From: Flavobacteriales bacterium UBA4466
GTDB lineage: Bacteria; Bacteroidota; Bacteroidia; Flavobacteriales_D; Crocinitomicaceae
Direction: 5' to 3'
Assembly: GCA_905182335.1 (NCBI GenBank)
Contig: CAJJBE010000003.1
Coordinates: 124,001 to 188,000 of the forward strand
Length of the DNA: 64,000 bases
Shown here piece after piece: positions 5,159 through 10,351 of this stretch. The notes under the pieces were generated by a model. The model did no database searches, had not been told where the DNA came from, and saw only the letters and a program-made list of their open reading frames with translations. The stretch's first letter is position 1; every line of letters begins with the position of its first letter. Position numbers and translations under genes: made by a program.

Positions 5159-6495
5159 ACTGTTTCAGAGTTTATTTTTTGTTCTAAAACTAATGATTCA
5201 AGTCCTAAATACGTATACATTTGTGTCCATTCATTATTTGTTTCTTCAGGATTTTTAAATGTGTTAATCCCGATTAATAATGTTGATTTTTCTTGAATGT
5301 TTTTAACCCGGAGATCCGATTTTTTAGTAATTTCATTTTTAAATGATTTTGATTTTACACCAGCGTCTAATTGTTCTAGCTCTTGAAATTTAACCCATGC
5401 TTTACGCGCAATTTCTTCTGTTGAGCATTCTACAGAGTAGCTACCTCCGAGTGGGTCAATGACAGCATCGAAATAAGATTCTTCTTTCAGAATATTAGAA
5501 ATATTTAATGCCATTCGCTCTGAAAGTTCAGATGCTCCATTTGTTGAATAGATATCATATGGTTTAACTACTACGGCATTAATCCCTCCAGTTACAGCAG
5601 ACATTACTTCAGTTGTTTGGCGTAATAAGTTTGTGTAAGGATCCTTCAATGATTTGTTTAAATGACCAATTACCGCAGTGATATCACAATTGTGAGAGCA
5701 ATTATGTTCGGGTTTGTATGCGCTTATCACTTTTGCCCAAAGTTGCTTTAATGCTCTAAATTTTGAGGTTTCAAAGAAGTAATTTGAGCCTACTCCCAGA
5801 TTAAATGAGATGCATGCAGATGCCTGGTCAATCGTGAAGCCTAATTCCATTAAGCGTATTAAATAGTCGTGACCTATATTCAAGCAAAATGCAATTTCTT
5901 GCCATGTATTCGCTCCAATATTTTGAACTTTGAATCCATTAACACTGCAGAACCTTTGCTGTTTAATTTTAAAGTGCTCCGCTATTAAATTTAAATCTTC
6001 AACCGATAATAAGCTATCTACGATATCAATGTTGTATTGAACATTGTTTGTATATGGTTTTAGTATGCTGTATAAGTCATCAAATTCAGATTTTGATTCA
6101 ATGACAAATTGAGTATGAATGAATTCAAATTTAATTTCATTGATTACAACGGTCCAATCAACCTTTTCTTTTTCAGGCTTAAAGACAAGTAAATCTGCTC
6201 CTGAATTTAATGCTAAAAGTGCTTTTTTGTTTGCTTCTTTTTCATTTGAAACCAATATAAAAGCACCATTTTTCCATTCGTTTCTCGATTCATTCATTCC
6301 TCGAGTAAATGGAAAGTTGCCAGGAATGTCATTCTTTAAAATGTCCTCAGAATGATAATAACTAGAAAGGCTTAAGTCCTCAATCTTATCATCTATAGCT
6401 ATGATTGATGGGTCCTTACCTTTTAAATCTGAGATAATTTTATCTTCCCATTCAGATTTTGAGACCTTTTTAAACTCGTTGAAAAAATCACTCAT
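5155..6495 (-). CDS. mutA: Methylmalonyl-CoA mutase, small subunit
   Basis: 446 residues, homologous to the large subunit but without catalytic residues, as in other heterodimeric mutases. It is shorter than the ~600-residue actinobacterial MutA because a C-terminal B12-like domain is essentially absent. This shortened form is common in Bacteroidota as far as I know. The [10 protein letters not shown] stretch near residue 348 mirrors [10 protein letters not shown] in MutB. It overlaps the upstream EI24 gene by 8 bp and mutB by 4 bp, a tight operon. Confidence 0.92.
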
Positions 6496-7258
6496 TTTTT
6501 AGCGCTTTCTGTTTGTTTTTTAATTGTTTAGGCTGAATCTTCTTCGTAAGATATAAATATACTAAAGTTGAGACCATAATTGTAATGATTGGAGCAAGAG
6601 GCACTCCGATAATTGGAATATTGTAAATACCTATAAAAATAGCACCAGTGAGGATCATCGTTAATGGCTGATTGAATGCAAAGCATAAGCTACTAAACAC
6701 TCCCGTTTCGTATCTTTCCAGAGCGAAATCATAGAATGAAAATCCAAAGAAAAATCCGGTAATACAAAAGTATACAATCGTGTCTAGTAATTCGAAACCA
6801 GTAATCCATGAGATTATCCAATAAAGACCGATAAAAATAAATTCAAGGAAAAGAGCGAGTATAATGACAAAGATCATTCTTATGAAGTCATTGAAAAAAC
6901 GAAGAAAACCGCCTTCAAACTTACCACCTGTGTATTTTGCGTCTAGCTTTTCACCAAGGTACGTGCTGAACGGAGATAATACACTTAGTACCATGAAGAT
7001 ATAAAGCTGTTCAGTCATTAGTTGAAATAGAGAGAATGCCTTTTGGACAGCAGAACTGACATATCCTGCTATCCAATCAATCCAAGAATAGTCACTAGTC
7101 AATTCAGCAGCATTAATAATGGCCGATGTTTGAGATGTAAACCAATAATAAACAACGGTCAATACTATTCCGGGAATAAAGAATAGAAGAAAGTTTCCTT
7201 TAAATAATTCTTCAAAGGTATTTGTTATCGCTTTAATGTGATAATTGACTGTCTCCAT
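6488..7258 (-). CDS. EI24-domain multi-pass membrane protein
   Basis: 256 residues with about five or six hydrophobic segments (near 22-42, 80-105, 125-150, 150-180, 200-240). The pattern of a short cytosolic N-terminus with FEELFKGNFLLFFIPG and a later GVFSSLCFAFNQP loop resembles the EI24/CysZ-like family of Bacteroidota, whose function is unknown or, in CysZ, sulfate uptake. It is first in the operon with mutA and mutB (8-bp overlap). A -7 box lies 7 bases before the ATG. Any role in propionate metabolism is unproven. Confidence 0.72.
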   Translation of the reverse strand: METVNYHIKAITNTFEELFKGNFLLFFIPGIVLTVVYYWFTSQTSAIINAAELTSDYSWIDWIAGYVSSAVQKAFSLFQLMTEQLYIFMVLSVLSPFSTYLGEKLDAKYTGGKFEGGFLRFFNDFIRMIFVIILALFLEFIFIGLYWIISWITGFELLDTIVYFCITGFFFGFSFYDFALERYETGVFSSLCFAFNQPLTMILTGAIFIGIYNIPIIGVPLAPIITIMVSTLVYLYLTKKIQPKQLKNKQKALKNE

Positions 7259-7265
7259 ATATCAA

Positions 7266-7273
7266 CAAATTTA
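7266..7273 (-). promoter_or_regulatory. -7 box (TAAATTTG) of the EI24-mutA-mutB operon
   Basis: Exact match to the Bacteroidota TAnnTTTG element, ending 7 bases before the ATG at 7258. No -33 TTG was found at the usual spacing. Confidence 0.6.
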
Positions 7274-7284
7274 ACGAATAGAAA

Positions 7285-7446
7285 TCATAATATTTTATTA
7301 AAGAGCAAGTAAAACCCACCGTAAAACAAAAGGATATTCATCGCCCATTGAACTTTTGACGTATAGCCTTGATTTTTCCAGTATAGCCAGTTAATTGTGC
7401 CAAGGATAATAGCAGGTGCGATTGGGTATAAAAAAACGACAGGCAT
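7285..7446 (-). CDS. Small two-helix membrane protein (53 aa), unannotated-size ORF
   Basis: An ATG-to-TGA frame of 53 codons in an otherwise empty gap. The product begins MPVVFLYPIAPAIILGTINW, then a polar turn (YWKNQGYTSK) and a second hydrophobic helix (QWAMNILLFYGGFYLLFNKI). A random frame would rarely give two clean transmembrane helices with a charged, tyrosine-rich turn, so I think it is real. It ends 26 bp before the EI24 gene and could be cotranscribed with it, although the EI24 -7 box lies just after it. I do not recognise a family. Confidence 0.5.
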   Translation of the reverse strand: MPVVFLYPIAPAIILGTINWLYWKNQGYTSKVQWAMNILLFYGGFYLLFNKIL

Positions 7447-7508
7447 TATCTTACGCTTTTTTTGAGATACTTAGAGCACATTTTTTTAGACCATTTAAAT
7501 TCTAATAT

Positions 7509-7533
7509 ATTGAACCTTATATTAAGGTTCAAT
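7509..7533. repeat. Perfect 11-bp inverted repeat with 3-base loop
   Basis: The two arms 7509-7519 and 7523-7533 are exact reverse complements around a TAT loop. It lies 42 bp beyond the stop of the lipid kinase gene (minus strand), so it probably ends that transcript. The T-run expected after a minus-strand terminator is weak, so an operator or mRNA-end stabiliser is also possible. Confidence 0.6.
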
Positions 7534-7575
7534 TTTAAGAAATGATATTTATATCAGGTTTAATAAACTTCATTA

Positions 7576-8454
7576 TCATTTGTTTCCTACCAATATATTA
7601 AGACTTTTTGGTACAACGCTAACGTTTAGTTCATCTTTTACATCAAAGGGTTCACCATCATAGTGTGCAATCTTCTTCGATAATTGAATTTTCACCGTTT
7701 TAAAAGTAATGATTTCGGCGAAACGACTTTTATCTCCACTTTTCCGAAAGAATCGGAAAAGAATCGAAGGAGCAGACCAAATCGAAAAAGGTTTTAATAG
7801 GCATAGTTCAAGCTCTCCATCTGTTACATCAGATTTCGGAGAGACAGTAAAGCCATTTCCAAATTGAGAAGCGTTAGCTACAGTGCATAGTACTACCGGT
7901 AATGTTTTGATTTTTCCATCTAAGTCTATAGAAATATTAATAGGATTGTATTTGAAAAACTCACGAATAATAAGATATGTATATCCGCGCAATCCTCGTT
8001 TACGATGTGTGTCGAATTTTTTAGCGATAACAGCATCAAACCCATAGCCACCAACGCCAAGAAATGATTTATCGTTTACAAGTACAGTATCCATTCTAAT
8101 AGCTTGGTTTCTGTTGATGCAAAAAATGGCATCTTTAATATTTAATGGTATTTTTAGATGTCTTGCAAGCCCATTTCCCGATCCGATAGGGAGAATAGCA
8201 AGTTTTGTGTTTGTCCCAATCAATGCTGTTCCAACTTCGTGCACTGAGCCATCACCACCAACAGCACAAACTATATCATAGTTCATTTTAGCTGATTCCG
8301 TCGCAATATATTTAGCATGCTTTCGGTATTCAGTATATGCGATGTCATAATCAAAGATATTTAAATCTAGATGTTGATCAATTAACTTGGGGATATCCTC
8401 CTTTTTCCCGATACCAGAAATTGGATTAATTATAAATCTGATCTTCTTTTTCAT
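7576..8454 (-). CDS. Diacylglycerol-kinase-family lipid kinase (YegS/DgkB-like)
   Basis: 292 residues, the family's usual length. NPISGIGKK near residue 10 and the nucleotide-binding GGDGSVHEVGTALIG (about 65-80) followed by PIGSGNGLARHL are diagnostic of the DAGK catalytic fold. DGELELCLLKP and HYDGEPF near the C-terminus complete the two-domain pattern. Members phosphorylate diacylglycerol or related lipids at the membrane face. Its first 29 bp lie inside the LTA-synthase-like gene, so the two are translated together. That pairing recalls Gram-positive DgkB, which recycles the diacylglycerol released by LtaS (inference). Confidence 0.9.
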   Translation of the reverse strand: MKKKIRFIINPISGIGKKEDIPKLIDQHLDLNIFDYDIAYTEYRKHAKYIATESAKMNYDIVCAVGGDGSVHEVGTALIGTNTKLAILPIGSGNGLARHLKIPLNIKDAIFCINRNQAIRMDTVLVNDKSFLGVGGYGFDAVIAKKFDTHRKRGLRGYTYLIIREFFKYNPINISIDLDGKIKTLPVVLCTVANASQFGNGFTVSPKSDVTDGELELCLLKPFSIWSAPSILFRFFRKSGDKSRFAEIITFKTVKIQLSKKIAHYDGEPFDVKDELNVSVVPKSLNILVGNK

Positions 8455-10351
8455 CTACTGTCGTTTGATTCAGAATTAGGTCGCGACTGTAGGTTTGAAT
8501 AATGGACTTTATCCTTTTTTCATTTTTTTCAACTTCACTAGAATAGTAAGAAATTGAATCAGTCGGAGCGACGCTCTGATTAGTGAAGTCATACAAATTC
8601 CGTGCCTTATCGTTCGAGAAGGATGTCATCTTCGAGTTTTTATAGTAGTAGTAAGTGCCTCCTATGTATGTAAGTGCTTCTGATTCATGACTTTGAAATT
8701 GTGAATTCCCAAAGGCATAATATTTTGTTTTGATATTTAAAAGGTCTAATATGGTAGGTAAAAGATCTAATTGTTGAATAATTTTATTACTTTTTTCTGG
8801 TTTTATACTTCCATTAGGGTGATAAAAAACAATCGGTATGCGATAGAGATGCGTTCTGGTTTGATATTCAGGCGTCTTTGATCCTGGTGTGTGGTCTGCA
8901 AGGAGAACGAACAGTGTATTGTCGTACCAGGGTTGTTTCTTAGCTTCTTTAAAAAACTCGCTAAGCGCATAATCGCTATAATTTATTGATCCACATATAG
9001 GTTGAGGGCCTTTTTTAACCTTTGGCTTCATATGTTCAGGAATGAAATAGGGATGGTGTGATGACACTGTGAATAAAAAACCAAAGAATGGCTCTTTCAT
9101 TTCTGTTAGCTTTTTCGCAGTCCAAGGATTAAAATATTCATCTAAAATTCCCCATGTTTTATCAAAATGATCATCGTTATTATACTCATGTCTTCCATAA
9201 TAGTTATCGAATCCACATATTTTTGAAAATCCATCGAAACGCATAGAGCCGTTAGTGGCTCCATGGAAGAACCCTGATGAGTAGCCATATTTTTTTAATA
9301 TGTTCGGAAGTGAATTTAACTTGTTATTTCCATATGGAGAAGATATGTAAGGGTTGTCCATTAATGTAGGTATAGATGCAATAGCAGCAGGCACGGCTTC
9401 TATCGATTTTTTCCCGTTTGCAAATGCGTAATTGAAGGTTAAAGAGTGGCCTATTAATGAGTCTAAAAATGGAGTATATCCCTCTCCGCTATTATAGGCT
9501 CCTATAAACTCAATACCAAAACTCTCTAGCATAATCATCACTACATTGGTCCCGTCGGGTAAAATATGTTGTGGAATAGATTGCTTGATAGGGTTGAATA
9601 TCTGTAATAATTCAACTTCGGAATAATAGTCAACGTTATTTAAACCACCTTGGTTAATCGTTTTAATCATCGTGAAAGGTGTTGTAAGAACAAACGCTGT
9701 GTTTTCTGTTTTACAGTAATTGGATGCTTCTATTATTCCAGTTGGTTTTAGAGTAAATCCTCCTCTTCCCATTATAATTAAAATAGGGGTTAATACTACG
9801 AAAGCGATTAAATTTGTCCTATAAAAAGTGATAGTTTTTGTTTTAAAAGTCGCGAGTGATTTTTCTGTTTTTCTATATAACCACTCTGATAATACTACTA
9901 AAATTATCAGAATTAATACTAAAAACCAGAAGTCCTTTAGGAAAGTCGAGATTAATTGTTTTAAATCACTTCCTGTACTCAGCATGGAGAACAAATCAAA
10001 CGTAGATCGCTTACTCGTGTATTTAAAATACTCAACATCTAGTAGGTTGAATGCAATCAAAAGAGTGTTCGTTGAGTGCCATAGTGTTTTTGTAAGTATT
10101 CGGTGGGTTTTATATCCTCGTATAGGAATAGGAAGGAGATAGATAGAGTAGAAAGGAAGAAAAAATAATCCTATAGTGATTAAGTCAAACCATATTGAAA
10201 TAGTGTAATCCCAGAATTCGAGTTCTTGAAAACTCCCAGAATTAAATGCTAAAAAAATGAGTCGTGTTATGTAAAGCATCAATAAGCTAATGCCCATTCG
10301 CTTTAGTATTACACTAACATGAATCGGGATCTTCTCTAGTAATCTTCTCAT
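8426..10351 (-). CDS. LTA-synthase-like phosphoglycerol transferase (alkaline phosphatase superfamily)
   Basis: 641 residues: five hydrophobic segments in the first ~200 residues, then an extracytoplasmic sulfatase-fold domain. Visible metal and catalytic features are MLESFG (about 273, metal Glu), GKKSIEAVPA (about 314; a Ser where LtaS has the Thr nucleophile), TVSSHHPY and LADHTPGSK (Asp-His). Such enzymes move phosphoglycerol or phosphoethanolamine from phospholipids to an acceptor. Gram-negative bacteria have no lipoteichoic acid, so the acceptor here is unknown (periplasmic glycan, lipid A or capsule are options). A -7 box sits 6 bases before the ATG. Confidence 0.85.
   Translation of the reverse strand: MRRLLEKIPIHVSVILKRMGISLLMLYITRLIFLAFNSGSFQELEFWDYTISIWFDLITIGLFFLPFYSIYLLPIPIRGYKTHRILTKTLWHSTNTLLIAFNLLDVEYFKYTSKRSTFDLFSMLSTGSDLKQLISTFLKDFWFLVLILIILVVLSEWLYRKTEKSLATFKTKTITFYRTNLIAFVVLTPILIIMGRGGFTLKPTGIIEASNYCKTENTAFVLTTPFTMIKTINQGGLNNVDYYSEVELLQIFNPIKQSIPQHILPDGTNVVMIMLESFGIEFIGAYNSGEGYTPFLDSLIGHSLTFNYAFANGKKSIEAVPAAIASIPTLMDNPYISSPYGNNKLNSLPNILKKYGYSSGFFHGATNGSMRFDGFSKICGFDNYYGRHEYNNDDHFDKTWGILDEYFNPWTAKKLTEMKEPFFGFLFTVSSHHPYFIPEHMKPKVKKGPQPICGSINYSDYALSEFFKEAKKQPWYDNTLFVLLADHTPGSKTPEYQTRTHLYRIPIVFYHPNGSIKPEKSNKIIQQLDLLPTILDLLNIKTKYYAFGNSQFQSHESEALTYIGGTYYYYKNSKMTSFSNDKARNLYDFTNQSVAPTDSISYYSSEVEKNEKRIKSIIQTYSRDLILNQTTVDEKEDQIYN

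Follow-up and report, generated by a model that had tools for sequence, protein, structure and literature searches.

What do a transferase resembling the lipoteichoic acid synthase LtaS and a kinase resembling the diacylglycerol (DAG) kinase DgkB, a combination that serves lipoteichoic acid in Gram-positive bacteria, do together in overlapping genes of a Gram-negative bacterium? The two genes lie in a 64,000-nucleotide stretch of Crocinitomicaceae DNA, analysed as a whole and referred to here as the window; the closest named relative, 80% identical, is a MAG of the same family. The genome that contains the window comprises 2.36 Mb in 7 contigs, and absences from it are provisional because the assembly is 91.9% complete. 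Drawing on sequence, structural models and analogy, we put the probability at roughly 60% that the pair couples a headgroup transferase that releases DAG with a kinase of its own that salvages it, forming a headgroup-transfer-and-salvage unit. The two open reading frames and the 29-bp overlap that an earlier note on this DNA had described were both recovered, on the minus strand, and the features used below are as follows.

8426-10351, minus strand: transferase gene, open reading frame of 641 aa, upstream member of the pair
7576-8454, minus strand: kinase gene, open reading frame of 292 aa
8426-8454, minus strand: 29-bp overlap common to the transferase and kinase reading frames
9404-9406, minus strand: codon of Ser316, the predicted nucleophile, in the motif NGKKSIEAVP, aligned with LtaS Thr300 (codons counted from 10351)
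8891-8896, minus strand: codons of Asp486-His487 (ADHT), predicted metal ligands from the alignment (codons counted from 10351)
7259-7575, minus strand: stretch 3' of the kinase gene, site of a DUF1569 gene in most relatives
Transferase model, residues ~10-36, 46-71, 81-112, 130-160 and 176-196: about five transmembrane helices
Transferase model, residues ~245-626: sulfatase-fold periplasmic domain

The junction varies among relatives. Relative to the end of the transferase gene, 40 of 64 named pairs have the kinase start at -4 (ATGA) and 10 have it at -29; the remainder stand at +6 (4 pairs), -77 (3 pairs), and -11, -17, -50 or -53 (7 pairs). Because the -4 arrangement prevails, the 29-bp overlap is, judging by these sequences, a derived variant of the 4-bp ATGA stop-start overlap usual in relatives, and the transferase and kinase are presumably translationally coupled. 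A promoter and terminator scan gave no excess over shuffled sequences.

Fold and catalytic residues of the transferase

A Pfam scan at E 0.001 returned Sulfatase (PF00884, E 6.7e-39) as the only domain of the transferase; the EptA-type N-terminal domain, which we take to be PF08019, was not found in that scan. The window genome holds only one PF00884 protein over cut-off. Against NCBIfam, the transferase stays below the cut-offs of both the LtaS model (97 bits versus 970) and the OpgB models (47.7 versus 574, and 41.8 versus 572). The structural model (pLDDT 87.6) begins with five long helices, which are followed by a domain of sulfatase fold, and its closest fold is that of 3lxq (Z 45.1, 382 residues aligned at rmsd 2.6), the Vibrio parahaemolyticus protein VP1736, which the structure entry lists as uncharacterised. 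LtaS and LtaP structures follow at Z 38.9-39.9 (rmsd 2.7-2.9, 362-373 residues aligned; for LtaS 4uoo, Z 39.9 and rmsd 2.7 over 369), as against Z 31.5 for YejM (rmsd 2.9, 315 aligned) and 31.5 or less for sulfatases. The structure prediction of the catalytic domain that the earlier note had proposed as a check thus returned an LtaS-class fold. EptA/MCR is not among the best 50 fold matches, an absence that carries no weight.

Profile alignments place E276, S316, D486 and H487 on LtaS E255, T300, D475 and H476, of which Asp475 is presumably a metal ligand, and none of the four varies among the 65 sequences aligned. The expectation that the nucleophile position reads Ser, not Thr, was thereby borne out. 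Going by the sequence of the Vibrio relative 3lxq, which also has Ser there, such a residue is not unusual, and Ser for Thr is a conservative substitution. Apart from Asp475, the roles of the LtaS metal, nucleophile and glycerol-phosphate residues are described in PMC4973235. Two glycerol-phosphate histidines of LtaS, H347 and H416, match H363 and H432 of the transferase (VP1736 differs in lacking the H347 equivalent), whereas LtaS D349, W354 and R356 are replaced by A365, M370 and F372 in 65 of 65 aligned sequences. Selection A1 comprises the window sequence and 21 of the other 27 transferase reading frames (28 were recovered from 30 loci); two further selections, A3 and A4, comprise the window sequence with 37 of 72 and 34 of 64, respectively. 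From sequence and model, we predict an LtaS-class membrane headgroup phosphotransferase with intact catalytic residues.

The donor lipid

The strongest competing account, and the one in the earlier note, is that the transferase uses phosphatidylglycerol (PG) and attaches phosphoglycerol to a periplasmic glycan, lipid A or a surface polysaccharide, with the kinase recycling the DAG; we consider this possible but unlikely. The nearest characterised folds are those of LtaS enzymes, and the two matching histidines belong to the LtaS glycerol-phosphate site. The PG user OpgB of Escherichia coli, with which the transferase aligns at an hhalign probability of 97%, has a similar local motif (QGAN...LRF versus HGATNGSMRF in the transferase). 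The replaced LtaS residues D349, W354 and R356 speak against PG, yet this headgroup set is absent from OpgB too; we therefore dropped these residues as a test against a PG donor, as positions missing from a PG user cannot decide the donor.

Searches for the PG synthase PgsA (TIGR00560) count against phosphoglycerol: no genome among 150 of the order scored over cut-off, as compared to 6 of 14 controls. The best score among the 150 was 95 bits (G132), the rest reaching 52 or less. Of the two CDP-alcohol phosphatidyltransferases in the window genome, the first nearly attains the PssA cut-off (106.1 bits versus 107) and the second, L203, scores 23.9 bits against the PgsA cut-off of 109.1. L203, located at L203:1138-1905 (-) on contig C2, finds its best model in archaetidylinositol phosphate synthase (63 bits versus 180); as an enzyme without an assigned product it bears on the donor question and leaves the PG account some support. 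We take the genus Brumimicrobium to belong to the Crocinitomicaceae. In the isolate Brumimicrobium ulvae, the predominant polar lipids are reported to be phosphatidylethanolamine (PE) and an aminolipid, and the main text of that paper makes no mention of PG (PMC12313589). For E. coli, ClsB is reported to make PG from PE without pgsA (PMC8027125), and by analogy PG could possibly be made by another route in these genomes.

Overall, phosphoglycerol as the transferred group is not supported, and PE may be favoured over PG as donor, since the searches turned up no canonical PG synthase and a cultured relative has PE as a predominant lipid. A more specific proposal, which we offer tentatively and at less than even odds, is that in bacteria devoid of a PG synthase an LtaS-class enzyme switched its donor from PG to PE and attaches phosphoethanolamine to an envelope acceptor, in an operon with a salvage kinase and with a DinB-like DUF1569 protein for a third step. 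With PE as donor, the acceptor may be lipid A or a surface glycan, and conceivably even an aminolipid or a ceramide-type lipid.

The kinase and a predicted salvage cycle

The kinase carries the Pfam domains DAGK_cat (PF00781, E 2e-27) and YegS_C (PF19279, E 3.6e-17); it scores 107.1 against the TIGR00147 subfamily cut-off of 118.65, and no NCBIfam kinase model is over cut-off. Within its GGDG(S/T) sequence, GGDG is invariant in the aligned kinases, as is a DGE motif; selection A2 comprises the window kinase and 21 of the other 29. In fold comparisons of the model (pLDDT 91.3), the sphingosine kinase SphK1 3vzb is the top match (Z 30.4, rmsd 2.5 over 288), followed by the DAG kinases 3t5p (Z 29.5, rmsd 2.8 over 276) and DgkB 2qv7 (Z 28.4, rmsd 3.1 over 273), scores that, for this model, do not separate DAG kinases from sphingosine kinases. 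Sequence profiles score DAG kinases at 86-115 bits, YegS at 74-76 and SphK1 at 31. The hydrophobic V142 presumably stands at the place of SphK1 Asp178. These comparisons indicate a soluble lipid kinase of the DgkB/YegS class that probably has DAG kinase activity. One divergent kinase, at L157:6868-7764 (+), shares no more than 50% identity with any of the other 64 in the alignment, with a typical transferase and typical neighbours; it is possibly an in-place replacement.

We consider it improbable that the substrate of the kinase is a sphingoid base or ceramide, in a chemistry unrelated to the transferase and in the manner of Porphyromonas gingivalis dhSphK1 (PG1348), which acts on dihydrosphingosine (PMC9045371), or Caulobacter CpgB, which acts on ceramide (PMC10331486). 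All are lipid kinases, CpgB has GGDG and PG1348 comes from a member of the Bacteroidota, likenesses drawn by description only. In favour of such a substrate are the top rank of SphK1 by fold, tied with 3t5p, the dihydrosphingosine kinase activity known from the phylum, and the alpha-oxoamine synthase L209, whose best model is the Bacteroidota serine palmitoyltransferase (287 bits versus a cut-off of 640). Against it stand the sequence-profile scores, the presence of the kinase in 50 of 50 transferase genomes, and the finding that serine palmitoyltransferase exceeds its cut-off in none of the 150 genomes and in one control; that model (NF047600), which at E 1e-100 caught mostly glycine C-acetyltransferase, is informative on its cut-off only. 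The NF047600 match of the window genome is at the same place as L206, named as glycine C-acetyltransferase.

The headgroup-transfer-and-salvage unit that we favour would operate as follows. In the periplasm, the membrane enzyme would take the phospho-headgroup from a glycerophospholipid by way of an intermediate on metal-bound Ser316. The headgroup would be passed to an acceptor outside the inner membrane, with DAG left in the membrane, and the cytoplasmic kinase would then use ATP to convert the DAG back to phosphatidic acid. The genes, the fold class, the intact catalytic residues, the linkage and the co-occurrence are directly established; from these we infer the activities of both enzymes and DAG as their shared intermediate. 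The cycle is supported by the presence of the kinase in all 50 transferase genomes, unlinked cases included. DgkA (PF01219) was not found in the window genome in a search that was positive in 8 of 14 controls, which likewise supports the cycle. A second DAGK_cat protein, L004, is encoded in the window genome, and the kinase of the pair need not be the sole salvage enzyme. Counting against the cycle, no kinase among the matches listed adjoins the close relatives of the transferase found outside the order.

The cycle has precedents. As in LtaS and DgkB, the transferase has five helices, a sulfatase-fold domain, the metal site, a Ser/Thr nucleophile and both glycerol-phosphate histidines, and the kinase is of the DgkB class; the pair differs in the LtaS score, the replaced D349/W354/R356, the Gram-negative host and the overlap of the genes in one unit. 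In E. coli, OpgB releases DAG that DgkA salvages, EptA has been suggested as a further source of DAG, and an mdoB mutation that relieves the DAG build-up of a dgkA mutant was isolated as a suppressor (PMC8027125). The pair is predicted to share periplasmic DAG release and ATP-dependent DAG salvage with that system, its kinase being of the soluble DgkB/YegS class rather than DgkA. The earlier note was right in pairing a transferase of the LtaS class with a lipid kinase of the DgkB/YegS class, in overlapping Bacteroidota genes that prove to be a conserved unit and fit DAG release and recycling, but overstated the logic as unrecognised, given that the E. coli enzymes run the same salvage cycle without an operon. 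Among the titles and abstract openings listed for literature on this pairing and on LtaS-like enzymes in Gram-negatives and Bacteroidota, none describes the pair. If the cycle is real, DAG-releasing headgroup transfer and DAG salvage would be joined in one operon in a widespread aquatic group of Bacteroidota, opening a way to an as yet undescribed modification of little-studied bacterial envelopes and providing a test of whether LtaS-class enzymes can work without PG.

Linkage, distribution and a third gene

At least 300 nt follow the transferase gene in 76 of the 80 named loci, and the kinase gene lies directly downstream in 74 of these, far beyond chance; L187 and L198 have the room but no kinase next. 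Both proteins were searched through 150 genomes of the order and the results joined per genome, with presence set at ~220 bits for the transferase and ~145 bits for the kinase from the listed rows, weaker paralogues being ignored. The transferase is present in 50 genomes and the kinase in 53, and all 50 transferase genomes also have the kinase, counts that shared ancestry inflates. Three genomes (G021, G028 and G045) have the kinase only, and G045 has transferase fragments at or near contig ends. The pair is directly adjacent in 40 of the 53 kinase-bearing genomes, across seven families (f1, f4, f5, f6, f8, f10 and f12). The main exception is genus g2, in which the kinase adjoins the transferase in 4 of 14 genomes.

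That the adjacency is merely inherited gene order with no functional link is very improbable. Neighbours are conserved as well, a methylmalonyl-CoA mutase gene being found in 40 of the 80 loci, but the pair is kept in 34 of 36 loci that have room and lack a detected mutase gene (in some, the contig ends too early to show the mutase). Both genes also persist together where they are unlinked, and outside family f1 the transferase occurs in 8 of 108 genomes, all 8 of which have the kinase. It is scarcely credible that the transferase has no catalytic role and serves, in the way of YejM/PbgA, as a sensor or lipid-binding protein with a regulatory linkage to the kinase: the helices and sulfatase fold are shared, but the transferase retains its metal and nucleophile residues, without variation among the aligned sequences, whereas PbgA lacks the metal site (PMC4973235), and YejM fits 7 to 8 Z units worse than LtaS.

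Across the phylum, a survey of 296 genomes, each at least 90% complete, gave transferase profile matches in 56 at 1e-30 and kinase profile matches in at least 193 at 1e-15. Among genomes outside the order with a transferase above 400 bits, 0 of 26 have a directly adjacent kinase among the kinase matches listed, in a count read by eye that could miss weak neighbours; G377, read in the same way, has a kinase ~2 kb upstream of the transferase. In two other genomes (G170, contig C23, ~157469-159470; G250, contig C1, ~1037239-1039249), a more distant, divergent LtaS-like match ends ~120 nt from a related lipid kinase; this pairing involves another family of the class and is possibly of independent origin. 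With 0 of 26 adjacent and two pairings of a more distant transferase, the unit therefore belongs mainly to one order, and conservation of the pair, which the earlier note had proposed to check, holds across seven families of that order but does not extend to the Bacteroidota at large, among the matches listed.

A DUF1569 (PF07606) gene, whose product we take to be DinB-like, was found by protein match in 54 of the 80 named loci, and tblastn adds two. It directly follows the kinase gene in most of the 54 (for example, L138:2911-3366 (+)), and in two it lies at 124 and 270 nt. Five histidines of the protein (37, 121, 139, 142 and 143) are invariant in the 30 of 54 sequences in selection A5 and would fit a metal site. 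Of 35 genomes with a strong DUF1569 match among the 150, 32 have it adjoining the kinase, and 24 of those have the full trio. Eight genomes of genus g2 keep the kinase and DUF1569 genes together with the transferase elsewhere; for this reason, and given the 4 of 14 adjacency, part of the kinase's role may lie elsewhere. In the window genome, DUF1569 was not found at E 1e-5, and 7259-7575 contains neither the gene nor a remnant; the sequence comparison points to loss of the gene in the window species. As a recurrent partner of the pair, DUF1569 gains a functional lead for a family of unknown role. Next to that stretch, at 6488-7258 (-), the window encodes a 256-aa protein that appears membrane-like by eye and has no Pfam or NCBIfam match. 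Its gene overlaps a small methylmalonyl-CoA mutase gene by 8 bp, and its relatives are found near the pair in 27 of the 80 named loci.
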